From: Pseudomonadota bacterium
Lineage (GTDB): Bacteria; Desulfobacterota; SM23-61
DNA length: 64,000 nt
Assembly: GCA_018819135.1 (NCBI GenBank)
Contig: JAHJQK010000119.1
Coordinates: forward strand, 1-64,000
Direction of reading: 5' to 3'
In this document: positions 3,423 to 19,652 of the stretch, in pieces
Layout of the letters: each line of letters begins with the position of its first letter
How positions within the stretch are numbered: position 1 is the first letter of the stretch
Position numbers and translations under genes: made by a program
The notes under the pieces: model-generated
The model's input: the letters and a program-made list of their open reading frames with translations, nothing else
Database searches by the model: none
Told to the model about the DNA's origin: nothing

Positions 3423-3576
3423 ATTTAAAGTTTATTGCATTAGGCCTACTCTTCCTTCTCTTCTTCCTAGTACCCCCTCCCAAAAATGCCCCAATGCCGC
3501 CCTCCAAATACTCTTTTTTTTCACTGCTGCCACTTGTGTCTTGCAACTGGCCGCAGCACTGATTTGAACGGAGGAA

Positions 3577-3660
3577 ATGACTGCGGGGGCTGACTTCGTG
3601 TGCCTCGACCAAAATTTGAGGGAAGCAGCTTTAAAAGAAGGCTTCACCGTTCTTCCCTAA
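3577..3660 (+). pseudogene. C-terminal remnant of a PIN-domain (VapC-like) toxin
   Basis: Translates MTAGADFVCLDQNLREAALKEGFTVLP*, resembling a PIN C-terminus; an in-frame TGA lies just upstream. Confidence 0.4.
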
Positions 3661-3918
3661 ACTTGATTAACTCTTCTGAAACTTTTTCCTGAATAGATTT
3701 CATGCCCCCCTTCCTCGCTCAGACTTTCCTTTTGAGGTCGTCACAAGGAATGATCGTGCTCGGCCTGGAATAAAAAAACTCTAAAAAGCGGGTAAGAGCG
3801 GATATTTACGGGGTAAATGGCATCTCCCAATCCCCGCTTGCCGGAAGTCCGGAGAAGGGTGCCAATAATACATATAAAGAAGTTTGACTTATTCGCATAA
3901 TCTGAATTATTATTATTA

Positions 3919-4227
3919 TTGGAAAAAGGAGGAAATCTTATGAAAGCTTTTGCTACTGTTCCCAGGCCCGCGAGGATAAGAATCCGGGGGCAGATTACTA
4001 TTCCCCAGGACATACGAGAAGAAATGAATCTGGATGCGCAAGCTACGATTAATCTCTTCCGGGTGGGGAAGGTTTTGTTGATGACCCCCAAACGACTGGA
4101 GCGAGCTTCGTTGGCCAGGAAGGTGGAGCGGGAAATGAAGCGCGAAGGACTGACTTTGGAAGATCTGCTGGCGGGTCTCAAATCCCAACGGGAACGATAT
4201 CTTGAAGAAGCCTTTTCAAAAGATTAA
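3919..4227 (+). CDS. AbrB/SpoVT-type (VapB/MazE-like) antitoxin
   Basis: 102 aa; 'RIRIRGQITIPQDIREEMNLDAQATINLFRVGKVLLM' swapped-hairpin AbrB signature. Confidence 0.85.
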   Translation: MEKGGNLMKAFATVPRPARIRIRGQITIPQDIREEMNLDAQATINLFRVGKVLLMTPKRLERASLARKVEREMKREGLTLEDLLAGLKSQRERYLEEAFSKD

Positions 4228-4656
4228 GGTTTTCATCGACACCAGCGTCTCATTGCGGGGGTCTCGTCGGTAACCGGAGCCTCTGCCGCGGTTCTGGATC
4301 TCTGCGAGGCTGAAGTCCTCCAGATGGTGGTCAGTCGGCAAGTCCTGGTTGAAGCGGATCGTAATTTTTGCGCCAAACTCCCCAATTTAGTAATCCAATT
4401 TCGGCGGTTCATCCGGAATCTGGCTATGTTAATGGTCGAGGACCCGCCGGCAAAAGCAGTGAAAAGGGCTGCCAGTCTAATTAACCGCAAGGATGCCCCA
4501 ATCCTTGCCGCAGCCATGGAATCAGAAGCTGACTATTTGATTACGCTCGATAAAAAGCATTTCTTAAAGCAGAAGGCCACGCCCAATATCCCCATCGAAG
4601 TCTGCACGCCGGCTGATTTTCTAAGAATTTTTGAGCGTCTCTGGCTCCAGGATTAG
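4202..4656 (+). pseudogene. PIN-domain toxin (VapC-like) with apparent 1-nt deletion
   Basis: TTG start at 4202 gives LKKPFQKIKVFIDTSV, then the frame breaks at ~4247-4251; the other frame continues LIAGVSSVTGASAAVLDLCEAEVLQMVVSRQVLVEADRNF... to the stop at 4656. Confidence 0.75.
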
Positions 4657-4756
4657 CCACCCTTCTTGTTCCCTCCCTTGTTCCCCTGGAGTTAGTTGGT
4701 CGGGAAATGGAAGCCTGGACAAAAAAAGTGTATTCCTAAATAACTATGCGAATCTG

Positions 4757-5023
4757 ATGATGGAAAAGGGGAATTTCAGCAGGGCGGAAGAGCTTTTCAA
4801 AAAGGCTTTGAATCTGAAACCTGTTCACCCACATTCCTACTTCGGCCTCGCTCTGTTATACCGGGTAACCGGCCATCCGGAAGAAAGTCTCAAAGTCCTT
4901 GAACGGCTTTTTATCTTGATGCCCAAAACCCCAGGAATTGAAAGCACGCAGATTTATAATGAGGCCCGCAATCTTTACACAGAAATTAAGGCAGAGACGG
5001 AATCAAAGACAAGCACTCATTAA
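4757..5023 (+). CDS. TPR-repeat protein, probably a fragment
   Basis: MMEKGNFSRAEELFKKALNLKPVHPHSYFGLALLYRVTGHPEESLKVLERLF contains two TPR-like units; short with unclear start. Confidence 0.5.
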   Translation: MMEKGNFSRAEELFKKALNLKPVHPHSYFGLALLYRVTGHPEESLKVLERLFILMPKTPGIESTQIYNEARNLYTEIKAETESKTSTH

Positions 5024-5124
5024 AATCAAAAATAGTGTTGAGACGGAAATTTGCCGAGTGAAAAACCGGAATACGGATCTCCGGGTCTCTATAGCCCGCT
5101 AACTTTCCTGGCGGATAAAGATTT

Positions 5125-5176
5125 GATCGAATTTCAGTAAATTCCGAATGCAAACAAAATAGATCTGACCCCGCGC
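5125..5176 (+). repeat. Dispersed intergenic repeat, copy 1 (upstream of AOR)
   Basis: gatcgaatttcagtaaattccgaatgcaaacaaaatagatctgaccccgcgc; 3 mismatches to copy at 7514. Confidence 0.9.
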
Positions 5177-5289
5177 CCGTTTTTCCTCTACTAAGATTTT
5201 CGTGCTTTCCTATCGCGGCCGGTGTAGAATGGAAAAACGTTGGCGTCTTTCGAGTCACGTGATCAATTTTTTTATAAGGAGGTTGCTTT

Positions 5290-7179
5290 ATGCCGACAGG
5301 ATACAACGGAAAAATCTTGCGGGTCAATTTGACCTCAGGGGCTATCCGCGAGGAAACCCCGGAGGAAATCGTCTACCGCACGTATATGGGCGGATCCGCC
5401 CTTTCTTCGTATTATCTGCTGAAAGAGCAAAAGGCGGGCGTAGACCCCCTCGGCCCGGAGAACAAACTGCTCTTTATGTCCAGCGTGATCTCCGGAGCGC
5501 CCCTAATGGGTCTAACCCGATACACCGTGGCGGCCCGCTCTCCCTTGACCGGGGCTTTCGGGGAAGCAGAAGCGGGGGGTTTTTTCGGGCCGGAGCTGAA
5601 GATGGCGGGGTTTGATGGAGTCATCATTGAAGGGCGGTCGGCCAAGCCGGTATATCTCTGGATCAAAGACGGCCGGGCGGAAATTCGGGATGCTTCCAAG
5701 ATTTGGGGAAAAGACACCGGAGAGGCGGAAAAGCTGATCCGCGAGGAGCTCGGAGACAACCGGATTCGCGTGGCCCAGTGCGGCCCGGCCGGGGAGAAGC
5801 GGGTGCGCTATGCCTGCGTGGTCAACGAACTGAAGCATGCCAACGGCCGTACCGGCATGGGAGCCGTGATGGGGTCCAAGAACCTGCGGGCCATTGCCGC
5901 CCGGGGCACGCAGAGGGTTTCGCTGGCCAATCCGGAAAAAGTCGGGGAGATCGGGAAAAAAGTACTCGAACTCCTTTCCCAGTCCGGAATGGCCCAGAAT
6001 TTGAAAAAGTTCGGGACGCCCATGTTCGTCATGCCCCTGCAGAACTCGGGGATCCTGCCGACGCGGAATTTTCAAAAGGGGCAATTCGAGGGGGCGGAAG
6101 CCATTTGCGGCGAAAAGATGACCGACACGATCCTGGTGAAATCGGAAGGTTGCTACGCTTGTGCGGTTCTATGCAAGCGGTCGGTCAAGGTGGAGGGCAA
6201 GTATAACGCCTCTCCCGAATACGGGGGGCCTGAATACGAGACGGTCGCCTCCCTGGGGTCCTACTGCGGGATTGATAACCTGGCGGCTATCGCCCAGGGG
6301 AATGAGATGTGCAACCGGTACGGTTTAGATACCATCTCCGTGGGTGTTTGCATCGCTTTTGCCATGGAATTGGTGGAAAAGGGAATCCTTACTGCAAAAG
6401 ACACCGACGAGATTGACCTTCGCTTTGGGAATACGGATGCCATGTTGGCCATGATTGGGAAGATCGCCAGACGCGAAGGTTTCGGCGATGTGTTGGCGGA
6501 AGGCGTTCAGCGGGCGGCCCAGAAGATCGGGAAAGGGGCCGAAAAATTTGCCATGCACATCAAGGGCCAAGAACTGCCCATGCATGATCCGCGGGGAAAG
6601 CAGGGATTGTCCCTGAGTTATGCCACCTCCCCCACCGGGGCGGATCATATCGAAGCTCCCCATGATACTTCTTTCTTAACCGATGGCCCGGCGCTGAAAG
6701 CTGCCAAGCCGGCCGGTGTTATGGAGCCCGTCCCGGCGCTGGAGATGGGCCCGAGAAAGGTTCGGCAGTTTGTCCACACCCAGGCAATCTGGAACTCCTT
6801 TAACTCCCTGGGAGTCTGTAACTTTGCCGCGGCGCCTTATACGGCGATTCCTCTTGTTACGCTCGCCGAGGCGGTGGAGGCGATTACCGGCTGGAATACC
6901 AGCCTTTACGAATTGATGGAGCTGGGGGAGCGGACGGTCACGATGGCGAGGATGTTCAACATCCGGGAAGGGTTGTCCAAAAAGGATGATTATCTCCCCG
7001 AGAGATTATATGAAACCTTGGAGGCCGGGACTCCCCGGGAGAAAAAGATTACCCGCGAAGATTTCGCCAATACCCTGAAACTTTATTATGGGGCCATGGG
7101 CTGGGACCCGGAAACCGGAGTGCCGACCGAAGGGAGATTGAGCTTTTTAGGCTTGGATTGGTTGATTCCCAAAAAATAG
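5290..7179 (+). CDS. Aldehyde:ferredoxin oxidoreductase family (tungsten-containing)
   Basis: 629 aa; MPTGYNGKILRVNLTSGAIREE..., GEAEAGGFFGPELKMAGFDGVIIEGRS, CYACAVLCKR cluster motif. Confidence 0.93.
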   Translation: MPTGYNGKILRVNLTSGAIREETPEEIVYRTYMGGSALSSYYLLKEQKAGVDPLGPENKLLFMSSVISGAPLMGLTRYTVAARSPLTGAFGEAEAGGFFGPELKMAGFDGVIIEGRSAKPVYLWIKDGRAEIRDASKIWGKDTGEAEKLIREELGDNRIRVAQCGPAGEKRVRYACVVNELKHANGRTGMGAVMGSKNLRAIAARGTQRVSLANPEKVGEIGKKVLELLSQSGMAQNLKKFGTPMFVMPLQNSGILPTRNFQKGQFEGAEAICGEKMTDTILVKSEGCYACAVLCKRSVKVEGKYNASPEYGGPEYETVASLGSYCGIDNLAAIAQGNEMCNRYGLDTISVGVCIAFAMELVEKGILTAKDTDEIDLRFGNTDAMLAMIGKIARREGFGDVLAEGVQRAAQKIGKGAEKFAMHIKGQELPMHDPRGKQGLSLSYATSPTGADHIEAPHDTSFLTDGPALKAAKPAGVMEPVPALEMGPRKVRQFVHTQAIWNSFNSLGVCNFAAAPYTAIPLVTLAEAVEAITGWNTSLYELMELGERTVTMARMFNIREGLSKKDDYLPERLYETLEAGTPREKKITREDFANTLKLYYGAMGWDPETGVPTEGRLSFLGLDWLIPKK

Positions 7180-7199
7180 AGAAGGACCCCTCCAGACAT

Positions 7200-7250
7200 A
7201 AGGCCATAGAAGATTCATCCTCCCTGAATTTTCTATGGCCTTTTTCTTTT
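7200..7250 (+). terminator. Rho-independent terminator downstream of the AOR gene
   Basis: AAGGCCATAGAA (7200-7211) / TTCTATGGCCTT (7231-7242), 12-bp perfect stem followed by TTTCTTTT. Confidence 0.8.
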
Positions 7251-7513
7251 CCGACCATAAAGCCACAACAAATAACCCTTCCCCCCTCTTTTCGGGATTA
7301 CAAGCAAGTTCACTTTGAACTCACGTCCCGGTTTACCCAGGATTTGAATTTGAACCACTTCCTCATCTGGATTTGTTCCTAAAAAAACCAGATGGATCGA
7401 TCCATAAGAAACTGAATTATTTAAGGGCGTCCCCCTCTCCTTGGCAAATTGCTTCCGCAACGGCGGCAGCCAGGTCCGTAAGTTCACTCAGAAAGAACGT
7501 CCCCTTTTACGAT

Positions 7514-7565
7514 GATCGAATTTCAGGAAATTCCGAATGCAAACAAAATAGACCTGACCCCGTGC
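7514..7565 (+). repeat. Dispersed intergenic repeat, copy 2 (left edge of accessory island)
   Basis: gatcgaatttcaggaaattccgaatgcaaacaaaatagacctgaccccgtgc; contains GAATTTC-AG-GAAATTC dyad. Confidence 0.9.
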
Positions 7566-7607
7566 GCACTATCGATTCTGGGTTGAACCATACATCCTTT
7601 GGCGGAT

Positions 7608-8372
7608 TTAGCTCTCATCACTCAGCTCATAAAATCGTATATTGAATTGAGTTCGATATTGTTCATAAAGATTTCGCGGAATTGCGAAACTTATGGCTTT
7701 CCTAAGATTTCTAAGCTTAGCGCCCTGTAAATCATCGAAATACATAGTGATGAGGATTTGATTTATGGCTTGAATTGCCTTTTCTTCCCTTGTTAGCCAC
7801 TGGTTCATTTTTGATATATCAGGTAACATTATAACCGGGAAAAATTGATCTATTTGAGTCATTCGGAACCTGATCGAGGTAGCATGAACGGCTCTTGATA
7901 AGGTCGAGTATTCTCTTTTCAACAAAGCAATACCTGACAAATTATCATCTATTGAGTTATATTTAGGGTGTTTGGAAATATAATTGACGTAATCTGATAT
8001 TGGCAACTGGTTTTTCCCCGCCTCCCATAATTCATATTCGACAGGATGATCTTTATAATAGAGGCAAAATAATGTATTCTCAATGGCGCTCCTAAGAGAT
8101 TGCAGCGATGGGCGCCATGATCCAATTTTTGCAAGACTGTGCGACAAAAGAGCATCATTTTGGGCCTCTATGAAAAAGCATAAAGATGAAATATGAATTT
8201 TGTTTTCCAATACATACGCTTTCCATGCTTCCAAAGAGGACAACCTCTTATAACTCTCTAAATAAAGACTATTATTGCTTTCCAGAGCAACATACGCTTG
8301 AGTAAATCTCGTCTTAAGTTCACCATTGAAAGAAGAATAGTTGGCTTCTAATTCATCAATTAGATTTTTCAT
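7608..8372 (-). CDS. Uncharacterised all-helical protein (possible HEPN/DUF5677-like)
   Basis: 254 aa; alpha-helical composition with 'REYSTLSRAVHATS' segment; third gene of the ParA-led cluster. Confidence 0.6.
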   Translation of the reverse strand: MKNLIDELEANYSSFNGELKTRFTQAYVALESNNSLYLESYKRLSSLEAWKAYVLENKIHISSLCFFIEAQNDALLSHSLAKIGSWRPSLQSLRSAIENTLFCLYYKDHPVEYELWEAGKNQLPISDYVNYISKHPKYNSIDDNLSGIALLKREYSTLSRAVHATSIRFRMTQIDQFFPVIMLPDISKMNQWLTREEKAIQAINQILITMYFDDLQGAKLRNLRKAISFAIPRNLYEQYRTQFNIRFYELSDES

Positions 8373-8374
8373 AA

Positions 8375-8755
8375 TTAGGTACCTTCTAAGAGAATATCAA
8401 GCGCCCGACTCAGCGCAGAGGGTTTCTCGAAGGTCTCCTTAGCTTTTCTTTTAAGCGTATCTACTGCCTCTGGGTTGGCATCAAGATAGTTGAGAAGTTT
8501 TCCCATTATATTTCTCGATGAATCACGGGGCTTGACATCAATTTGGAATCCATAGTCTGCGATTAGTTTTAGCCATTCTTTCCTTCCTATTTTTGAAAGA
8601 GAATGTAAGGTCTTTAAATTTACCGCCACTTGTCCTGTATCGAGTTCGCTTGATGGCCCAAAAAGCTTACCAAGTTCTGAAATATCTAAATCTGGCCGCG
8701 CCTCTAAAATATCAGCTAATAATCTCAGAGCTTTTGCAACCGAGTGTGTCTTCAT
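8375..8755 (-). CDS. Uncharacterised 126-aa protein between ParA and the 254-aa protein
   Basis: Start overlaps parA stop (8752-8755); 2-nt gap to downstream ORF; indicates translational coupling. Confidence 0.65.
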   Translation of the reverse strand: MKTHSVAKALRLLADILEARPDLDISELGKLFGPSSELDTGQVAVNLKTLHSLSKIGRKEWLKLIADYGFQIDVKPRDSSRNIMGKLLNYLDANPEAVDTLKRKAKETFEKPSALSRALDILLEGT

Positions 8756-9561
8756 AATTCACCCATCCTTTTCAAAATTTCAATAGAACAATCCTCAAAT
8801 TCCTTTTTAGCTTCCCTGTCGCCCATTTCATATATTGATCGATTTTGTGAGGCGGCCTCGCTGACTGCGGCACGCTCTTTAATCTCAGGAGTTATTACCA
8901 ATTCACCAAACCTCGCCCGCAAATCATCAGATATTTCAGAACGATGCCTTGCGGGGCGGCCAACCCGAGAAAGTATTATGCCAATATGTTGGAGGTCATG
9001 CTGCAAGTCTTTGCAGAAGTCTTTAACGCGGCTCAATAGTATACCTATCCCAATTGCCGATAAAAAATCAGGCGAAACTGGTACTGCAAAGTGAGTACTC
9101 ATCGCCAACGCATTTTGTGTAGGGATAGTTAAATTTGGGGGGCAATCACAAACAACAATTTTATATTGCGTTAAGATGTCACCTAAAGACCTTTTTAACT
9201 TGGTTTCTCTGGCAGTGGTAGCAGCTAAATCTAAGTCAATTGTAAACAAATCTAAATGTGAGGGTACCAAATCGACATTTCTGAAAACGTTGCGTATTAT
9301 TATTTCAGATACATTCGCTTCTCCACCTTCTGGAGAGGTATGCCTTCTCATACCCATAATATTTGCAATGGTTCCCTTTTTTGTAGAATGATCTTTCCAT
9401 TTTTCTACCGTAATACATGAGAAGGTTGCGTTAGTCTGAGGGTCCGTATCAATAAGCAAAGTCTTTAATTCTTGTAGACCACAAAATGCTGCAAAATTGA
9501 CTGAAACAGCTGTCTTGCCGACTCCCCCTTTTAGGTTTACAAAGGATACTGTTGGAGGCAT
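8752..9561 (-). CDS. ParA/Soj-family ATPase
   Basis: 269 aa; deviant Walker A KGGVGKTAVSVNFA; DTDPQTN; CDCPPNL. Confidence 0.9.
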   Translation of the reverse strand: MPPTVSFVNLKGGVGKTAVSVNFAAFCGLQELKTLLIDTDPQTNATFSCITVEKWKDHSTKKGTIANIMGMRRHTSPEGGEANVSEIIIRNVFRNVDLVPSHLDLFTIDLDLAATTARETKLKRSLGDILTQYKIVVCDCPPNLTIPTQNALAMSTHFAVPVSPDFLSAIGIGILLSRVKDFCKDLQHDLQHIGIILSRVGRPARHRSEISDDLRARFGELVITPEIKERAAVSEAASQNRSIYEMGDREAKKEFEDCSIEILKRMGEL

Positions 9562-9562
9562 T

Positions 9563-9676
9563 TTAAGCTCCTATTTCTAAAAGACGAGCGGATTTTTCCG
9601 GAAGAAGATCTCTTTTTTCTGCAAGTTTATCTTCAATACGCTTTCCAAAAATCTCCAAGGACTTGGCATAGCTCAT
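9563..9676 (-). CDS. Small ORF (37 aa) directly upstream of parA
   Basis: MSYAKSLEIFGKRIEDKLAEKRDLLPEKSARLLEIGA*; ends 1 nt before the parA start; absent from the ORF track because of length. Confidence 0.35.
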   Translation of the reverse strand: MSYAKSLEIFGKRIEDKLAEKRDLLPEKSARLLEIGA

Positions 9677-9720
9677 GACCGCACTGGGAGTCGGATTTTT
9701 TGGCGACCCGGTGTAGCCGA

Positions 9721-10299
9721 TTATGTTATGGTCTTATTCATCACAAAACGGCTCGTTGGTAACCCCGATTCACATTGAATGAGCTCCAATGCTTTCTTTA
9801 CGAGTTCCTTATTGGTGCCCATAAGAATGAAACAGGCATGGGACACGTAGGCGATGGAAGCAATACCTTGATTGTATAGGAAAGCCAATTTTCCCGCGAG
9901 CTGCTCGGGCTCACGTCCCCTCGGCAGGGACTGGTCAAAGACCAGTGTCAACAACGTGGGGCGTTCACGGACAATCGAGATGATCTCTGATCCGAACAGA
10001 TATGAGGGAGCGTTCTTAGCTCGGTTGGCCGTTAATCGAAGGCCAGTGTCCGGATCAAGGAAAAGATGATCTGGACATCTTCGGGCGCGAGCAAAATAGG
10101 ATTCGCGGTCTGTCTCTGCTTTGATTATGTCAAGGGATAGTAGCGGGACACCTAACAAGAGAGAGAAAGCAGCAGCTTGATCAGAAGAAACATGTTCGGT
10201 GAACATTGGATGGGCCACCCACGCCCCGTATGCGCCCAGCCACCGAAGAAGACTTCGCTTCACAATGTCGTAAGAATCGCCAAAATATTTCAGCTTCAA
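9721..10299 (-). CDS. Uncharacterised 192-aa protein
   Basis: ORF with coherent protein-like composition (MKLKYFGDSYDIVKRSLLRWLGAYG...FLDPDTGLRL); TTG start. Confidence 0.6.
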   Translation of the reverse strand: MKLKYFGDSYDIVKRSLLRWLGAYGAWVAHPMFTEHVSSDQAAAFSLLLGVPLLSLDIIKAETDRESYFARARRCPDHLFLDPDTGLRLTANRAKNAPSYLFGSEIISIVRERPTLLTLVFDQSLPRGREPEQLAGKLAFLYNQGIASIAYVSHACFILMGTNKELVKKALELIQCESGLPTSRFVMNKTIT

Positions 10300-10399
10300 T
10301 TTCTGTTTCCATTATTCCACATAGCGTGCCAATCTCCGCACTTCATCAGAAATTCTGAAATAAAGAGTATATCCAAAGCCTTAATGATTATGGGTAGAA

Positions 10400-10427
10400 A
10401 CTTACGCCTTTTGACAGAATATGTCAA
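10400..10427 (-). promoter_or_regulatory. Putative promoter/operator for the 192-aa/ParA cluster
   Basis: On minus strand TTGACA-N17-TAAGTT; the -35 forms half of dyad TTGACAgaataTGTCAA (10411-10427). Confidence 0.4.
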
Positions 10428-10717
10428 CAGAATAGTTCAGGATAGTTCAGGAAGAACTCCTTGATTTTCCGGGGGAATATTGCCCCTTATTGAATTTCAG
10501 TTCAATCTACAAAGTTTGGAAAGTCAGAGGCCACCGGCAGCCGGATTTATCGGCGATCCGATGTTCCGATATTCGGGGGAGGCGCAGGCAAGAACCATTG
10601 AATTCCGGGTGAAGGCAGACTGTTCCGCACTATTTGTTATCATGCCATGGTGCTCGGATGGAAATATGGCGTAGCGGTAATTCTCTCTGATCCGACATAG
10701 AGACCCCACTTTCTTGG

Positions 10718-13700
10718 TTAGAGTTTTCTGATCCATTCCCCTTCTGCCTCTAAACGACCTTGGCGGATTAGTCCGCTTATAACGGATTTAAGATTTTCTT
10801 GGATGCTCTCTCCGGTACGGGTAAACCCCAGATAGCGGGAAGCTGCCCTAATTGCATCTTCTCTCGAAATCCAGGTGTTCCCAATTGCACTTATGAACAT
10901 TTCCTTCAGGAATTCTCGGTCATACTCTTGAATTGAGCGACAATAAGGATATACGACGTCATTTTGGACATTACTAATCCCACGTCGTGAGGAAGCGTTT
11001 ATCGCAGAATTGATATCTTCACTGATTCGACTTCCAGCCCGCTGGAACCCAAGCTCCTGAGCAATGGATTTAATCAGTTCTCCACGTTCGATCCCTTCCG
11101 ATCCAGCTTCTGATACAAATTTACGAACACGTATAATCAATTCATCAAAATCATATTCCTCTTTTTTGGTGTCGCTCTCTTCTTTGCCAATGGTTTCTCT
11201 TTTTTCCTCCTCAATCTCATTTTGAACGGGTTTTTCTCTTGCATTTTCCCCGCTTGGATATTCTGAAGGGTGATCTTCTGCAGCTAATTTCAATTGAACG
11301 CTATCCATCGAAGCTTGTTTAGCATAGGCTTTCGAAGGGGAGGAGGGGTCCATTCCATTGGCTGAATCTCCCCCCTGCTTTTTTAAAGCAAACGCCTCTG
11401 GCCAGCCCCCATGTTGTTCGATGACCTTATCGATTTCGGACATGAGGCTTAAGGTTTCGTTTATGGCGACGACGATTTTTTGATAGTGATCAATATCGGC
11501 AGCTGAGAGCCTACGGCCCCTTCGATCCTTGATCCATTTTTCACAAACTTGATACCCACCAATGTGGAAGTTCCAGACGGTCTCTGGAACACTGCAAAAA
11601 CCTTCCGACCCAAACTTGTCTATCCAGACGGTCCTGTCCGCATATGTCACCTTTTCAACCTCGCCGCTTGGCACCTTGCCCACCCATTTCGCGATGTGCT
11701 TTTCCAACCTGGGTGATTCCATTAGGTGCAGAGCGATGAGTTCTTCCCCATGTTTTGTCAATGCATGGAATAACTCCAGATTGTCTGTCAGAGGCAAACG
11801 GGGGAAATCACTTCTAAGGAATTCAAAGTAACGTGCCCGATAATTTGGTGAATGCATGACCGCGTAAACATAGTTGAAGAAGCGCATCGGAGTGAGTTCG
11901 TCGTCTCTACCTATACCTCGCTCGCCGAAGTTTATCTTCAGTCCGAGGGCTTGAGATAGCTTTATAAAAACCGTTCCCTTGAGATTTGGAGTCGTCCCAG
12001 ATGCCAAACCCAATTTATCGCCCTCGCCAATTATGAATAGAGGAAATATCTGCGTATTTCTGTCGTGTGAGCAAGCCTTAATTTCGATTATATGGCGAGA
12101 GACAAATACGTGTTCAAACTGTGGACGTGTGACTTGGCGAGTAGCTACCAAAGCGATGTTATCTCCACCACGCATTTGGTCTGCCATCGGACGCGACATA
12201 CTCCACACAACGCTTGAATGGAAGAAAATGAAACGCTCGTCAAAGGGACGGTGTAGTATGCGGCGGATAGGCTCGGTGTACGATTTGAGCTTTCGAAGCC
12301 CAGCCTGTGAATCTCGTAAGTCAAATCGTTTGCTCTCCGAAAAGCCAAACTCCCCATAAATAGTGGCTTCGCTGCCCCTTGCCTTGCTAAACAGATCAAG
12401 GCGTTCCGCAAGAAGGCGTCGATTCTCAGCAATTACAAGTCCATCACGAGCTGTAATTATGCCAGCGCTATTTTTGGGGAACAGTTCGCTTAGCCCTACA
12501 CCGAGGTTCCACTCCTGCCCCAAATCCGCGTCGTGCGGTATAAACAGGTAAAAAGGCGCCGAAGGTTTTATATGGGAGAAGTTGGTCGAGGTCCTACTGC
12601 TTTTTTGCAATAATAAATATTTGATTGCCCTGGAGCCGTAGTAATCAGTGTGAAAGACAGCCGCATTGCCTCCTTTTTTCTTTAAGTGGCTCCCAAGAAA
12701 TATAGCGACACCTTGAAGTATGTCGAATACATTTCCCTCGGGAGTACCATCCGGGGCAACTTCTCCTTTTGCGAGATGGCCGTGCAAGTCAAGAGCCCAA
12801 ATGCTTTCGAAAGTCTCCAGTAAAGAGTTTCTCATCCCTCGTAGTGTTGGTGTGCTGATGTATCCGTTGTTAGTGATTAAACCGAGAATACCAACTGACG
12901 ATATAACGATCTGATTTTCGCAAAAACGAAAAAATTTAACATAGTCGTCCTGGAGGTTTATTTCAAATTGAAGTGCACCGCGCTCCTTTATTCTTTCACC
13001 GTCTACGAAGCGATAGCGCTCCACAGTCTCACGCATCTCAGGTGTTAGGTTGGACGAGATTTTTGAATACGGCGGATTGCCGATGACTACGGTGAAACGT
13101 TTATTTCTTTTTACTGCGTTGACAGCCTGTGCTTCATGGGCGAGCGCGGGGAAGATACCGGCCAATGCTGGTTGAACATCGGACTGCGGTTCAAGGGAGT
13201 TGGTAAGATAGATGTGGGCACGCCCCTCGAATTTGACTTGGTAATCCGGCTGGCCAAGACGGGCGTTGATTTCTGAGAGTTTCAGGCCGAGTTTCATATG
13301 GGCAATGGTGTACGGAGCCATCATCAGCTCATAGCCATAAAGCCGGGGCAAAAGGGCCTGCGGGACATAGGCGTTCCAGTAGTCCGTGAATCTACGATTT
13401 TCGATGACCGGTTTACGCCCGGGAAGCGGCGGCATTGACGCATACCCCTTTTCATCCCATTTATCCTTGATGTAGCAGAAGATTATCTCAATAATTTTCA
13501 CAAGGAAGGTCGCGGTGCCAGTTGCAGGGTCGAGCATGGTCACGAAGAATTCATCGGGTTTAACACCGTCCGGGATTTTCAAATCCTTATTACGCTTCAC
13601 CATCTCGCCCCAGCTAACGGTTGAGGCGAGTCCGTCTTCGATGCCGAATTCGGTCTGTAGAAGTTCGTGGACGCTTCGAACAATGTAGGAGACGACCGGC

Positions 13701-14848
13701 AGGGGCGTAAAAAAGACACCGCGCTGGACTTTCTTTTTCGAGTCGTAGGCCTTTAGAAAATGTTCGTAGAAATGGATGACCGGATCTTCATTGCGGGTAA
13801 GATTACCGAAATCAGCCTTCACGGCTTCTGCGTTGGCAATGTTAAGAAGCTCGACAACTTCCTGGATACCCAGTTCATCGAAATCGAAGGCCTCCTTTCT
13901 CCCGGCCACATTCAAGAACATGCCAAGTAATCCGCGCAGGAATGGGTTGGTAGGTGGAACCATGTCCACGAGGTTCTGAACCGAAATCCCAGCCGGACGC
14001 GAAAAACGAGCCGCAAGTAGGCCATAGGAGATGGTCTGCGCGATGACGTCGGCAAAATCATCCTCCGTCAGGTCATGAATGAGCGCTGTTTGAAACGCAG
14101 CGCAAAGCTGCCGCATAGGGCCGCGTTTCGACTCACGGGAAAGAATGGTGTTGGCTCTCTTGCGGATGGCGATGGCAAGCCGGGCGAGTTCCTCAACCAG
14201 TTCCTGCGCGGTGGCGATAACCTCCTGGTGACGCAGTATAAAGGCAGAAGCCCATTGTTTGCGCCAGGACTCCACATCCGAGGGGTTTTCAGGCCAACGC
14301 AGTTTCTCAGTCAGGGTGTGGTGAGCGTCAGCGAGATGAAGGACCGTATCGCCACCGTCCCAACCGAGCACCTTGAGGATCGCCAAATCGCCGGGGCTTT
14401 CCGGGTTTTGCCAGAAGTGGGCGAAGGTTATCGCACGGTCGTGATCCTCCCCATACGCCGAGATAAAAAGCAGATCGTGGGGGCGCCAGGCTGGACGATC
14501 GCCTTTCCGTGCGGAAGGCCGCTTTTTGATAGCCAAATTTGCCAGGATGCGCCGGAGCATGACAACCGGCAGACGTTTCTTCTCAAAGTTAATCCAGAAG
14601 ATGCCCCATGGTTGGTTGGATTCCAGGGGGCGAATTTGCTTGATTTCCTTGAAACGAACGCTGGACGCTGCATCGAAGCCGAGTTCTTCGGGATCGTAGT
14701 CGAAGGTCACATCCTCGATGTCATCTCGTCCGATGGGCCATTCCAATTCGTCCCGGAGGTAGGCGATAAGCTGGGGGAGGGTCTTGATGGAACGAAGGCG
14801 TTCAATATCGGGATATTGATTGTTCATAGTCAGCTTAACTCCATCCAT
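10718..14848 (-). CDS. Large N-6 adenine DNA methyltransferase (type ISP / Type I-like M-domain protein) with duplicated C-terminal modules
   Basis: 1376 aa; MLDPATGTATFLVKIIE (motif I) and VVIGNPPYSK (motif IV NPPY). Confidence 0.85.
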   Translation of the reverse strand: MDGVKLTMNNQYPDIERLRSIKTLPQLIAYLRDELEWPIGRDDIEDVTFDYDPEELGFDAASSVRFKEIKQIRPLESNQPWGIFWINFEKKRLPVVMLRRILANLAIKKRPSARKGDRPAWRPHDLLFISAYGEDHDRAITFAHFWQNPESPGDLAILKVLGWDGGDTVLHLADAHHTLTEKLRWPENPSDVESWRKQWASAFILRHQEVIATAQELVEELARLAIAIRKRANTILSRESKRGPMRQLCAAFQTALIHDLTEDDFADVIAQTISYGLLAARFSRPAGISVQNLVDMVPPTNPFLRGLLGMFLNVAGRKEAFDFDELGIQEVVELLNIANAEAVKADFGNLTRNEDPVIHFYEHFLKAYDSKKKVQRGVFFTPLPVVSYIVRSVHELLQTEFGIEDGLASTVSWGEMVKRNKDLKIPDGVKPDEFFVTMLDPATGTATFLVKIIEIIFCYIKDKWDEKGYASMPPLPGRKPVIENRRFTDYWNAYVPQALLPRLYGYELMMAPYTIAHMKLGLKLSEINARLGQPDYQVKFEGRAHIYLTNSLEPQSDVQPALAGIFPALAHEAQAVNAVKRNKRFTVVIGNPPYSKISSNLTPEMRETVERYRFVDGERIKERGALQFEINLQDDYVKFFRFCENQIVISSVGILGLITNNGYISTPTLRGMRNSLLETFESIWALDLHGHLAKGEVAPDGTPEGNVFDILQGVAIFLGSHLKKKGGNAAVFHTDYYGSRAIKYLLLQKSSRTSTNFSHIKPSAPFYLFIPHDADLGQEWNLGVGLSELFPKNSAGIITARDGLVIAENRRLLAERLDLFSKARGSEATIYGEFGFSESKRFDLRDSQAGLRKLKSYTEPIRRILHRPFDERFIFFHSSVVWSMSRPMADQMRGGDNIALVATRQVTRPQFEHVFVSRHIIEIKACSHDRNTQIFPLFIIGEGDKLGLASGTTPNLKGTVFIKLSQALGLKINFGERGIGRDDELTPMRFFNYVYAVMHSPNYRARYFEFLRSDFPRLPLTDNLELFHALTKHGEELIALHLMESPRLEKHIAKWVGKVPSGEVEKVTYADRTVWIDKFGSEGFCSVPETVWNFHIGGYQVCEKWIKDRRGRRLSAADIDHYQKIVVAINETLSLMSEIDKVIEQHGGWPEAFALKKQGGDSANGMDPSSPSKAYAKQASMDSVQLKLAAEDHPSEYPSGENAREKPVQNEIEEEKRETIGKEESDTKKEEYDFDELIIRVRKFVSEAGSEGIERGELIKSIAQELGFQRAGSRISEDINSAINASSRRGISNVQNDVVYPYCRSIQEYDREFLKEMFISAIGNTWISREDAIRAASRYLGFTRTGESIQENLKSVISGLIRQGRLEAEGEWIRKL

Positions 14849-17800
14849 GCTTTAAGAATTGGTTTCACGCCGATGGGCGCCTGGACTTGCTTGAGGTATG
14901 TGTTCTTAATGTGCTTGTCTATTTTTGCCCGGATTTCAGATAAGGTCTTGTCCTCAACTGAACGGTGGCGGGGTGTATTCGGCTGGCTGCGGATCATGTC
15001 TATAATCTCGCTGGGCTCCTCAATGATCTTCTCCGTAGCCAGATCATAAAGATACCATTTCGTAAAGCCCGTCACCTCTGTCCATTTTTCTGCATCTTTG
15101 ACGCTTTCATCCTTTTCTTGGGCGCTCGGCGCGGGGAGCGCATAGCAGAAGGATACGGCACGGGTGTCCGGCTTTGGGTGCTGTTTCCCGCTAAAGACAC
15201 GCAAGGGCAAATTAGATAGGCGCTCCTCAAGGCCAGGGTTTTCCTGGAGCAACTTCATGAACTCCAGCTGCATCCCCTCGGTGGCACTCGTTGTCCCTTC
15301 GTATTGATGATTGAAATCTTTTAGGGCCTCGAAGTCATCCTCGGGACGCAGAAGTTTTCGCCCTTCAATGCCAAAGACCTTCGAGATACGTAAGGTCTTG
15401 TGCGACACCTTGGAATAGAGGCGGAGTAGGTCGTCTAATTCCTCGGGAGGCAGGAAATTCCAAAAGATTACCTTGCCACGGGTCTCCTTCAGTTCGGGGT
15501 GGTCGGCGATCATCTGGGCTTCGACTTCCAGATTAAGGCGGCGATCCACACGGCCGATCCGCTGCATAAGCCGAACCGGGTTCCAGTGAATGTCGTAATT
15601 GATCAGCCGAGTGGCATCCTGAAGGTTCAAACCTTCTGAAAGAACGTCGGTAGAGATGAGAACGCGAGTCTCCTGATCAATTCCTGAGAATAACTCTCCC
15701 TGCGGAGGGGAGTTATAATATGGCGCGAATCGGCGGATGATCTCTGAGCGGTCGCGCTGCGTGGCGCTGTCAACCTGGTCCACGTCCTTGATATCCGCAG
15801 CTTCCAACTGCTTTTTTAGATAGCGGGCGGTTGCCATGAATTCGGAGAAAATCAAGACTTTCTTACCCTTGAGGTCGGTATCCGATTTCAACAGCCTGAT
15901 TAGGGCCTTCAGTTTATCATCATTTGCTGGCTTGAACCTTTTAAGCTCGGTAAGAAATTGAATAATTTCATCAAGGTCAAGGTAGGTTTCGTTGAGGATT
16001 TCATCCACTTTGTAATCGTCGCGCGAAAGCGGCTCAATTTCATCCAGCATTTCCTGGTCAATGAGATCCTCGTCTGCCTCCTCCTCAGACATCTCATGGT
16101 GATCCGCATGGACCTGGGCGAGCAGTTCTTCGTTCTGTCTCATCCAGCGGTCGAGCCGTTTTTTCTCTGTCGGGGTTGTGCTATGCTTCGTCACCCAGGC
16201 CAACAGCTTTAAAAGGAGCGTGTCGCAGGAGAATTCAAAGGCCCGGGCGGAACTTTCAAACCGCTTTAAGAATAGAATCCGAATGAGGCTTACAACAGCC
16301 TTCTGACGATTCTCCAACCATGCCCGCTGCTGTTTCTCCATGTCTGGACCGATGTAGTAGGCCAAGGGGTAGTAAACCGCGAGGGAAAACAGCGGCTTCT
16401 CCTTTTCAAAGGCTTTTTCCACCATGTCCAGCAAGCGTCCGTAAGTGGTTCGCAGCTTGTAGTGTGCCACGCGCGGCACCTCACGTTCAGGGAATATGGC
16501 TTTGGAACCGCCGTGCTGCTCCTGGCTTTTCTTCACGTAAGCGCGGCTCCGCTGAACCACAAGGGCACGAAAAAGGTCATCACTCCAGAGGATACGTTCG
16601 GCCTCCGCTTCATTGGTTTCAATATCAACTTCCCCTTCTGTCTGGGAGTTCCTATCGACTATCTTTTCGAGGGCCTTCTCCAGCTTACGGAAGTGGCCAG
16701 GGAGGGAATGAATCCCAAGCGGAGCCCCTTTGAAGTGGTCTGGCTTCTCACGCCGGGAGAAAAGTTCGATAACATGCTGGAGATCGGTTAGGCGGTTGTT
16801 AATGGGGGTCGCGGTCAAAAAGTACATTGTCTTGCCTTCCGCGATGTCATACAGGCGCCAGTAACGTGACTTGATTTCCTCTGGGTGCCCTCTCAAGCCG
16901 GGGTTTCGGAAGTGATGGGCCTCATCGATCACAATCACATCCGCCATTTCCTTCACCCGATCCAGCCGATACCAGTAATCGCCCCCCCGAAGCAGATCGG
17001 TGTGGTTAAATATCACAAGATTGCTGAAATCGCCCCCCAAATAACGGAGGTAGCGTCGTATGTCACGCTCCCAAACGTCAGACCGGGCCGCTTTTGGTAC
17101 GAGAAGAACAACTCGTTTCCGTTCATGAACGACCAGGCGTTCAATCAGCATCAGCCCGACATAGGTCTTCCCAAGCCCCACACCGTCGCAAAGAAAGGCA
17201 CCTCCATACTGGGCCGCGATTTTCAGAAGTGCGCGATAGCCCTCCTTCTGGTACTCGTCGAGAATTGGGTACATCCGGGACTGAGTTTGTTCCCATTCCC
17301 CGACAGTCATCTCGTGGCCACGGAAGAACTCCTGCAGGGCCTTGGCATAAACCAAGAAGGGAGGATATTCCTGGATATGACGTTCAATTGTCTTGAGAAC
17401 CTCTGCCGTAACATCCTCGGCTTCCTGCCAATGCTGTTCGTACCATTCTTGAAGTACGGAAACTGATTGGCCGGTGATTTGGACATTTAGTTCTATATTT
17501 TCTGTCAACCCCGGCGAGGTAAAATTGGATGACCCGACTAAAGCAGATGAGCCAACAACCTCAAGCCGCGCATGAGTAATGTAGGCTTTGGCGTGAAATT
17601 TTTCTTTTCGGAATACCCGGCAAGTAATTTTGCCAGAACGAATGGCTACGACAATAGCCGGGACACCAACGAGAAAATCATTTTTTTGCTTTTCAGACTC
17701 AATGCTTTCATCAAGGCGCCGTTTGGTTTTTTCGAAGGCTTCAATAAACGCACTTCTGGTGCGTTGGGATACCTCATTCCCCATCAAAATGCGGATTTGA

Positions 17801-17982
17801 TCTACTTTTTGCCATTCATCATTTAAACCGAGCAAGGCCCCAATTTCAAAAAAGCCTGTGGCAATATCAAAGCTTTTCGAAATCTGGCACCAATCATGGA
17901 GATAGCGCAAGACCTTCCATTCCTGGTCACTATTATCGACAATAAATAATTCGCTCCCAGTCGTGCTTATTCGTTTTGGCAT
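14830..17982 (-). CDS. SNF2/DEAH helicase with N-terminal phospholipase D-like (HKD) nuclease domain
   Basis: 1050 aa; FHAKAYITHARLEVVGSSALVGSSNFTSPG (HxK...GSSNF), DGVGLGKT, VIDEAHHFRN, RIGRVDR. Confidence 0.88.
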   Translation of the reverse strand: MPKRISTTGSELFIVDNSDQEWKVLRYLHDWCQISKSFDIATGFFEIGALLGLNDEWQKVDQIRILMGNEVSQRTRSAFIEAFEKTKRRLDESIESEKQKNDFLVGVPAIVVAIRSGKITCRVFRKEKFHAKAYITHARLEVVGSSALVGSSNFTSPGLTENIELNVQITGQSVSVLQEWYEQHWQEAEDVTAEVLKTIERHIQEYPPFLVYAKALQEFFRGHEMTVGEWEQTQSRMYPILDEYQKEGYRALLKIAAQYGGAFLCDGVGLGKTYVGLMLIERLVVHERKRVVLLVPKAARSDVWERDIRRYLRYLGGDFSNLVIFNHTDLLRGGDYWYRLDRVKEMADVIVIDEAHHFRNPGLRGHPEEIKSRYWRLYDIAEGKTMYFLTATPINNRLTDLQHVIELFSRREKPDHFKGAPLGIHSLPGHFRKLEKALEKIVDRNSQTEGEVDIETNEAEAERILWSDDLFRALVVQRSRAYVKKSQEQHGGSKAIFPEREVPRVAHYKLRTTYGRLLDMVEKAFEKEKPLFSLAVYYPLAYYIGPDMEKQQRAWLENRQKAVVSLIRILFLKRFESSARAFEFSCDTLLLKLLAWVTKHSTTPTEKKRLDRWMRQNEELLAQVHADHHEMSEEEADEDLIDQEMLDEIEPLSRDDYKVDEILNETYLDLDEIIQFLTELKRFKPANDDKLKALIRLLKSDTDLKGKKVLIFSEFMATARYLKKQLEAADIKDVDQVDSATQRDRSEIIRRFAPYYNSPPQGELFSGIDQETRVLISTDVLSEGLNLQDATRLINYDIHWNPVRLMQRIGRVDRRLNLEVEAQMIADHPELKETRGKVIFWNFLPPEELDDLLRLYSKVSHKTLRISKVFGIEGRKLLRPEDDFEALKDFNHQYEGTTSATEGMQLEFMKLLQENPGLEERLSNLPLRVFSGKQHPKPDTRAVSFCYALPAPSAQEKDESVKDAEKWTEVTGFTKWYLYDLATEKIIEEPSEIIDMIRSQPNTPRHRSVEDKTLSEIRAKIDKHIKNTYLKQVQAPIGVKPILKAWMELS

Positions 17983-18583
17983 AGGGAATCACCTTCTTTA
18001 ATAGGATTGGTGATTAGGTTTATGTTATTTCCTGAGAAATCACTTTTCTTTGTTTTAAAAATCCGGGGTCAAATTTTTATCCTTGACAATCTGCCCTTCA
18101 TCCATGAGTTTTGACTCCTAAGTCAAATCGCCCTAATCTCCTTCATAATATTTTCCCCCGCCAAGGCGCAAAGGACGCAAAGACGGTTCCACCGAAGATC
18201 CCATTATTATCTTATTAATCGAATACAGTAGGGTCAAAAGAATCTTAAGAGAGGCAAATAGCAGTCTAAAAATATCGCTTGGCGTTCTTTGCGTTTTGGT
18301 GTGACATTTGATCTGGAGGGCTGAATGATCATCGCGCATTCTTATTCCCCGCTTCTTGGAAGGCCTGGGTTTAAAATCCAGGGAAAAGGTTGTAGGGGAA
18401 ATCCAGAAGTTACCGCATCATAGCAGAAAATTCCGAGCAGGTCAAAATAACGATCAAATACCGTAAGGCGTAAGGGGCAAGTCGCGAAAGCGCAAGCGGA
18501 AACGGAAAAGGGCAGGGGCATGGGGCGTGGGGGATAAGGAAAATACGGAACAACCGTGCGTGAGGGGAACAGCCCCCCTTTTT

Positions 18584-18826
18584 TTAGGAGGTTTTTCTGC
18601 AAAGTTTCAAAAGCTCAAAATATTTCTCACGGGACATACGAGCTGTCTTCATATTGCTTTGAATGATTTCCACATCCACTTCTTTGTACGTAGGAATTAC
18701 GACCGGCCGGTGGAACCTTATTTTTGCATAGGATCGATGGCTTCCTGCTTGCCTTTCAAAAACAAACCCATCCTTTTGAAAAATACATTCCAATATTTTC
18801 CAGTGAACCGGAGTTATACGTGGCAT
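18584..18826 (-). CDS. hicA: HicA-like mRNA interferase toxin
   Basis: 80 aa; 'ILECIFQKDGFVFERQAGSHRSYAKIRFHRPVVIPTYKEVDVEIIQS' carries the HicA GSHR-Y and basic strand signature. Confidence 0.8.
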   Translation of the reverse strand: MPRITPVHWKILECIFQKDGFVFERQAGSHRSYAKIRFHRPVVIPTYKEVDVEIIQSNMKTARMSREKYFELLKLCRKTS

Positions 18827-19140
18827 TCAGGTTGACCAACCTCATTTATGTAAAATGGGATCGGGACATCGATGAAATTTTGGCTTTTCATTGGAGATAA
18901 TTTAACGGCAGGCATTTCGTATCGTGGCCTGAAACCACATTTTTTCAGAACTTCGTCCAGGGTTCCTCTTTCAAAACAGGAGATGAGAAAAAGAGAAATA
19001 GCTTCAGCCAAATTCTTTTTGGCCTTTTCTTCAGTTTCTCCCTGGGAATGGATATCAAGAACAGGGCAAGAAGCAAGAAGCCATTTTTTTCTTTTCTGAA
19101 TTTTGAACGGCAATTTTACTTTAAAATCAATCAATTGCAT
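18814..19140 (-). CDS. hicB: HicB-like antitoxin
   Basis: 108 aa; partial RNase H fold-like 'WLLASCPVLDIHSQGETEEKAKKNLAEAISLFL'; overlaps toxin gene by 13 nt. Confidence 0.75.
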   Translation of the reverse strand: MQLIDFKVKLPFKIQKRKKWLLASCPVLDIHSQGETEEKAKKNLAEAISLFLISCFERGTLDEVLKKCGFRPRYEMPAVKLSPMKSQNFIDVPIPFYINEVGQPECHV

Positions 19141-19252
19141 ATTTTTATCCTCCTCATCTTATGGAGGTTAATTCTTATCCCGAGTAGCTTAGAATACTCC
19201 TCCCAAAAAAAATGTCAATCGCTTTTGTGCTTTTTCTGAGTCTCATAATTGA

Positions 19253-19405
19253 TGATCTCGTAAAAAGTTAAAATTGGGATGGCAAAGTAAAAAGCTCCAT
19301 ATGCAAGGCGCGCAAAAGCTGAGGAGAGAGGCGTACTACAAGGTACGCCGCAACGACGAAGGTGAAGCGCAACGCCGCAGATGGACTTTTTACGAAGCCA
19401 TCATA
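19253..19405. repeat. MITE-like intergenic element, copy A
   Basis: Shell ...GTAAAAAGCTCCATATGCAAGGCGCGCAAAA...CAACGACGAAGGTGAAGCGCAACGCCGCAGATGGACTTTTTACGA with central GGCGTAC/GTACGCC hairpin. Confidence 0.8.
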
Positions 19406-19652
19406 ATTCATTAACGACGAAAACAGTATACCACTAAAATCGGAAAAAAGGATATCAATGCCACGAAATACCGTAAGAGCGCGAGGGGAAGCGGAAAAGG
19501 GCAAGGGGCAGGGAGCAGGGGGCAAGAACTGAAAGAACGCATAAGCGCATGGCGTTAAGCGCATAGCGAATGATCCAAGGGGGTATTTTCGTCAATTGGG
19601 GCTATTTCGACGCACAGATTCTTCCTGGTGCAGTAACCCTCCACCCCGTATT

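Follow-up and report, generated by a model that had tools for sequence, protein, structure and literature searches.

Which genes of a co-oriented run act together, and does the unit that they form match a defence system already named? We asked this of a 64,000-nucleotide stretch from a Desulfobacterota genome of lineage SM23-61 (contig C94 in a draft assembly of 4.43 Mb; hereafter the window), in which positions 7608-17982 hold six larger minus-strand open reading frames (ORFs) of 1050, 1376, 192, 269, 126 and 254 amino acids (aa) and a 37-aa ORF (9676-9563). A first inspection of the letters without database searches (the sequence-only reading) had given these coordinates and lengths correctly, and its calls of a helicase with an HKD nuclease, an N6 methylase and a ParA ATPase were confirmed by Pfam. 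It had placed all of the genes in one cassette. We find instead that the helicase-nuclease (P0001) and the methylase (P0002) are a conserved pair, which, judging from sequence, probably encodes a two-subunit ATP-dependent restriction-modification (R-M) enzyme working by the logic of Type ISP enzymes, with nuclease-motor and methylase-specificity functions on separate proteins. The features that carry this reading are as follows.

14830-17982, minus strand: P0001, predicted restriction (R)/motor subunit of 1050 aa, with PLD nuclease, SNF2/RapA-like ATPase and unassigned C-terminal region (Pfam, conservation, AlphaFold model, Foldseek and hidden Markov model searches)
10718-14848, minus strand: P0002, predicted modification/specificity (M/S) subunit of 1376 aa (Pfam, PDB profile matches, domain-wise comparison)
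14219-14848, minus strand: N1 domain of P0002, probable helicase-docking domain (sequence comparison, modelled alpha+beta fold)

Conserved pairing of helicase and methyltransferase

To evaluate the pair across genomes, P0001 was used as a query against 85,488 species genomes, which revealed 26 loci at 40-66% identity followed by a sharp fall to ~26%. These loci span many phyla, with Hydrogenedentota, Binataceae, Acidobacteria, Actinomycetota, Bacteroidetes and Planctomycetes represented among others. Carriers of the pair include the cultured Williamsia sp. 1138 and Rubripirellula obstinata. Of the 24 loci with a contig that runs past the helicase, 23 have an N1-bearing methyltransferase (MTase) downstream of it (L019 and L020, where the contigs stop at the helicase, were left out of this count). 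The pair was also present in all six further loci, namely L136 and L137 on viral contigs and L123 and L187-L189 in genomes found by other routes, such that overall 29 of 30 testable helicase relatives are paired. The two ORFs overlap by 19 bp in the window, and they are separated by a Fic gene in L027 and by a small ORF in L187 and L188. Besides these two, no gene family was common to the loci and none recurred in more than a few.

A reciprocal search gave a concordant picture. The N1 profile (residues 1-210), run against 396 genomes from the phylum of genome G403, returned seven matches. In six of these the gene immediately before the MTase is the helicase; the remaining one, L128/L190 (6545-9646), is an orphan MTase that has no helicase and whose N1 lacks its first two thirds. 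Within the window's own phylum, N1 was found in 2 of 396 genomes, these being the window itself and G293, where the match is a fragment of 81 residues at the edge of a contig. The pair is rare yet spread over distant lineages, a distribution to be expected if defence genes move horizontally, and genes of defence type (OLD-like ATPase, reverse transcriptase, Fic, Swt1-HEPN) occur near it in relatives. Together, these results bear out the earlier suggestion of a restriction-type helicase/nuclease and methylase pair that is ISP-like without being identical to Type ISP, and show that its members co-occur across many phyla.

As a separate observation on these neighbourhoods, L010 (17467-21216), L011 (17187-20305) and L024 (16440-17567) hold a reverse transcriptase, an OLD-like ATPase with a UvrD-like helicase, and a Swt1-HEPN protein.

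Domain anatomy of the two proteins

Pfam divides P0001 into PLDc_2, SNF2 and Helicase_C domains. Each chain has one HKD motif (H130, K132, G150-S151-N153), and the ATPase motifs comprise Walker A (268-273), DEAH (353-356) and motif VI (807-815). In an alignment of the close helicases, H130/K132/N153, K272, D353-E354-H356 and R808/R811 were invariant in 23 of 23 sequences. The AlphaFold model (mean predicted local distance difference test score, pLDDT, 79.6; predicted template modelling score, pTM, 0.59) resembles SNF2 remodellers, RapA and SauUSI in Foldseek, and the nearest solved relative by profile is RapA. The SauUSI match reached 7e-13 in Foldseek, yet with a template modelling score of only 0.18-0.22, and P0001 had no SRA match in Pfam. 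Because each chain carries a single HKD motif, cutting should need a dimer; BfiI and SauUSI both cut as dimers.

P0002 matches Eco57I/N6_Mtase and Type_ISP_C in Pfam and is composed of N1 (residues 1-210), a connector (211-340), an N6-adenine MTase (341-787), a Type ISP target recognition domain (TRD; 788-1137) and a C-terminal extension that few relatives share. The MTase core carries DPATGT and NPPY (N591), and the NPP(Y/F) and DPA motifs are kept in 14 of 14 MTases. The TRD belongs to PF18135 (236 bits, 6e-70), and a profile search of the PDB found the best solved relatives of MTase plus TRD to be DrdV (Type IIL) and the Type ISP enzymes LlaBIII (6e-56) and LlaGI (1e-50); the PADLOC model PDLC03610 was matched at 573 bits. 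This likeness to Type IIL/IIG enzymes in MTase core and TRD extends to the two other Type_ISP_C proteins of the same genome, L084 (7125-10490) and L085 (6689-9802), which are stand-alone, Type IIG-like and of the same MTase-TRD type, and with which the second half of the P0002 connector looks to be shared. They differ in lacking a motor and in having an N-terminal PD-(D/E)xK nuclease motif (GNPDFRVW...YVEAKS) at the place that N1 occupies in P0002.

In overall layout the pair resembles the Type ISP enzymes. LlaGI and LlaBIII run from Mrr nuclease through superfamily 2 (SF2) motor, coupler and MTase to TRD in one chain (PMC4872093), and the two genes of the pair, taken in order, give nuclease, motor, N1, connector, MTase and TRD, matching that arrangement with a homologous gamma-class N6-MTase and PF18135 TRD. 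The pair differs in that it consists of two polypeptides, in the window as in the relatives, such that the chain is broken between motor and methylase; in that P0001 has a PLD nuclease instead of Mrr and an SNF2/RapA-like motor; and in that P0002 has the extra N1.

N1 as a candidate docking domain

Domain-wise comparison revealed a gradient along P0002, in which pairwise identity followed that of the helicase most closely in N1 (correlation r = 0.88), then in the connector (0.79) and the MTase core (0.54), and least in the TRD (0.09), over 55 pairs, not independent of one another, from 11 loci. At L004, L027 and L187, whose helicases share 58-66% identity with P0001, N1 is retained at 31-42% identity and the MTase/TRD core is not recognisably related to that of P0002; the swapped core of L004 matches other IIG and DrmMI-like models. 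Because its identity tracks the helicase, because it is kept when cores are swapped and because it is truncated in the MTase that has no helicase, N1 probably docks P0002 to P0001.

The N1 model (pLDDT 83, pTM 0.80) has an alpha+beta fold for which Foldseek against PDB and BFVD returned only noise, and searches of its sequence against Pfam and PDB gave no match, to a nuclease or otherwise. On this basis we propose, tentatively and with less confidence than we place in the pair itself, that N1 may be an exchangeable docking domain of new fold through which one PLD-SNF2 motor-nuclease serves unrelated ISP/IIL-type or DrmMI-like cores, and that the loci may form a split-ISP class, modular and two-component, for which the defence catalogues searched have no entry.

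The MTase ORF of L004 (13108-17319) also contains, at residues ~880-985, an IS200/REP-type transposase-like stretch (YWLHAWCVMPNHV) that appears to be an in-frame insertion.

Proposed function and points against it

The most likely function, as far as sequence can tell, is ATP-dependent restriction of DNA that is unmodified at an asymmetric site, with self-protection by N6-methyladenine on one strand. The MTase-TRD subunit would recognise the asymmetric site and methylate one adenine; at an unmodified site, N1 would engage or release the PLD-SNF2 subunit, whose SNF2 motor would then travel on duplex DNA. Two motors would finally converge or dimerise such that PLD half-sites meet and the DNA is cut, an event expected at that point because of the dimer requirement. 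A precedent exists in SauUSI, which combines PLD with an SF2 motor, translocates on DNA and shreds the stretch between sites (PMC7913695). The pair may in this way act against phages or plasmids.

Such a function would link the single-chain Type ISP enzymes with the multi-gene defence systems that combine SNF2 proteins and methylases (BREX-related, DISARM). The same motor-nuclease has apparently been recruited by different methylases via one small domain, which, if true, explains how specificity can change in such systems without loss of the motor, and makes N1 a testable interface for asking how the motor and the methylase of these systems communicate.

Several points weigh against this reading. 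L006 carries the helicase without an MTase and is the sole exception among the 24 testable loci, and the set behind the N1 correlation is small. The N1 coding region also adjoins the helicase gene, so linkage combined with recombination further downstream could yield the same gradient. As the P0001 motor is RapA/SNF2-like and not HsdR-like as in Type ISP, coupling may differ from that of the Type ISP enzymes. Lastly, if a PDC-S68 protein (see below) is needed, the copy in the window may be impaired since this third gene is broken.

Alternative explanations

The best-surviving alternative, which we nonetheless regard as unlikely, is a three-gene system of helicase-nuclease, MTase and PDC-S68 superfamily 1 (SF1) helicase, the third member of which has been lost in the window. 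It draws on one further feature.

10540-10698, minus strand: N-terminal remnant, with an in-frame stop, of PDC-S68, a RecD-like SF1 helicase (tblastn)

This remnant lies directly after the MTase stop, with the 192-aa ORF beyond it, and was found by tblastn with the L011 homologue (53% over 53 aa, at E 6.6e-9 when computed against the window plus all loci then collected). It indicates that the cassette lost its former next gene, and AT-rich material of the ParA part now abuts the break. In L005, L010, L011 and L188 an intact PDC-S68 gene comes after the MTase. Most loci with room downstream have none, however, and in L010 and L011 other defence genes lie in between, which fits co-localisation in defence islands.

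A slightly less likely possibility than a lost third gene is that the pair is a degenerate locus, derived from a BREX-related (DUF499/Hma) or a DISARM system, that has shed its other parts. Type-2 DUF499-centred BREX-related systems hold a fusion of HKD nuclease and Swi2/Snf2 helicase beside an N6-MTase (PMC12839542), and P0001 likewise has HKD N-terminal to a Swi2/Snf2 helicase and an N6-MTase as partner; it also scores against the DrmD and HmaA models. Those scores are far below family cut-offs (134 bits for DrmD against an NCBIfam cut-off of 610), the pair has no third conserved gene, and its MTase is of ISP/IIL type with N1. Type-2 loci also include a DUF3780 gene; the loci studied here have no third gene family in common, in a comparison of neighbours that included no HMM search aimed at DUF3780. 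DUF499 ATPase was moreover missing in 18 of 23 genomes with the helicase clade, in a search that did not cover G000, which argues that the pair is not a BREX-related/Hma system.

DISARM shares with the pair an SNF2 helicase and an N6-MTase, as does ARMADA, but both require a YprA-like/DUF1998 partner (PMC12458937). The pair has no such partner beside it, and its nuclease is fused to the helicase. No drmA/drmB-type neighbours are conserved at the loci, and the MZB/DUF1998 matches in G000, G399 and G403 lie on other contigs. The likeness to Type ISP or DISARM that the sequence-only reading had seen thus stands for Type ISP, by MTase/TRD homology, and is weak for DISARM, given the DrmD score and the partner genes that do not adjoin.

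A large sister family at ~26% identity (L030-L083), which matches PADLOC C3a139 (428 bits for L037), similarly has an HKD-SNF2 protein followed by an N6-MTase. That MTase is of another family, DrmMI/IIG-like and without N1, and an SMC-like ATPase (~555 aa) is the next gene in 13 loci; some loci have DUF1016/YhcG between. We found no description of an N1-bearing pair in the literature, most subscription papers and REBASE being outside the search.

It is improbable that the two proteins act apart, with the MTase regulatory or orphan and the helicase-nuclease working by itself, for instance on DNA that is stalled or modified. SauUSI-like PLD-SF2 enzymes do work without a partner MTase (PMC7913695), but the tight pairing and the co-variation of N1 with the helicase speak against it here. 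In SauUSI (Type IV) and in CglI/NgoAVII, as in the pair, a PLD nuclease works with an SF2 ATPase. SauUSI has no MTase, unlike the pair, and carries its own SRA-type TRD; in CglI/NgoAVII, PLD and B3 TRD make up one subunit and the ATPase another, whereas P0001 fuses PLD to ATPase and had no B3 match in Pfam.

The ParA trio, its neighbours and the 16.2-kb insertion

In addition to the two-subunit R-M enzyme proposed above, the run and its surroundings hold the following features.

9721-10299, minus strand: 192-aa protein, no family, neighbour of the R-M pair (database and genome searches)
8752-9561, minus strand: ParA-type ATPase, 269 aa, neighbour module (AAA_31, 4e-40)
8375-8755, minus strand: 126-aa protein, ParA neighbour, no family (weak similarity to a 158-aa protein of L088)
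7608-8372, minus strand: 254-aa protein, third of the ParA trio (no relative found)
3449-19633, no strand: 16.2-kb insertion (junction in G001 and G004)

It is very improbable that all 10.4 kb form a single defence system in which ParA and the 192-, 126- and 254-aa proteins serve as accessory sensors or effectors. All genes are co-oriented on the minus strand and ParA ATPases occur in conflict systems, but relatives of the four neighbour proteins are missing from all 32 helicase loci, the gene remnant and a step in G+C (~0.52 across the helicase, 0.41 across the ParA trio) divide the R-M pair from the ParA part, and the order ParA, small protein, ~260-aa protein recurs without the R-M pair in Acetoanaerobium. 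The single cassette of the sequence-only reading is therefore retained for helicase and MTase and given up for the ParA trio and the 192-aa protein, a lack of conserved co-occurrence in other genomes being what that reading had itself named as counting against it. A real unit is in this way set apart from genes that adjoin it by chance in a defence island. The 192-aa protein and the ParA trio are unrelated to the R-M pair and, like a HicA-containing pair, are separate cargo of the island.

Evaluating the trio further, we found in Acetoanaerobium noterae (L088, 4001-6125) an operon of ParA, a 158-aa and a 269-aa protein in the same order as in the window. The 158-aa protein has weak similarity to the window's 126-aa protein (pairwise E 0.003); the 269-aa protein does not resemble the 254-aa protein, and no other relative of it turned up in plasmids. 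A search for the trio and the 192-aa protein across viral contigs, plasmids, phages and as many as 396 genomes brought up, apart from the weak matches given below, just chromosomal ParA genes of the ordinary kind, with ParB following in most cases. The 192-, 126- and 254-aa proteins had no match in Pfam. For the 192-aa protein, whose ORF begins with TTG such that the true start is uncertain, searches of NCBIfam, PADLOC, plasmids, phages, viral contigs and 147 further genomes from the phylum likewise gave no relative, and for the 254-aa protein the same was true of plasmids, viral contigs and 395 further genomes from the phylum. A 44-aa match of the latter to DUF3800 (E 9e-4) was not taken as real, and weak matches of the 126-aa protein (E 0.004-0.007) were regarded as chance.

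The wider setting was revealed by related genomes. In G001, of the same genus (FtsY 97% identical), the position equivalent to window 3448 joins that of 19634 with 22 bp between, and G004, of the same family, has the same junction, so window 3449-19633 is a 16.2-kb insertion. No integrase, tRNA or flanking direct repeats were found at its ends. It sits between an LEA/lipoprotein-like gene and ftsY and contains a VapBC-like pair, an aldehyde ferredoxin oxidoreductase, the ParA trio, the R-M pair and the HicA-containing pair. The last of these lies between ftsY and the helicase (18584-19140, minus strand) and consists of a HicA toxin (E 8e-8) and, upstream, a partner of 108 aa that is probably HicB-like. 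At the other end of the insertion (3919-4656, plus strand), a putative toxin-antitoxin pair was recognised by eye, with ORFs of 102 aa (AbrB/VapB-like) and 110 aa (PIN/VapC-like).

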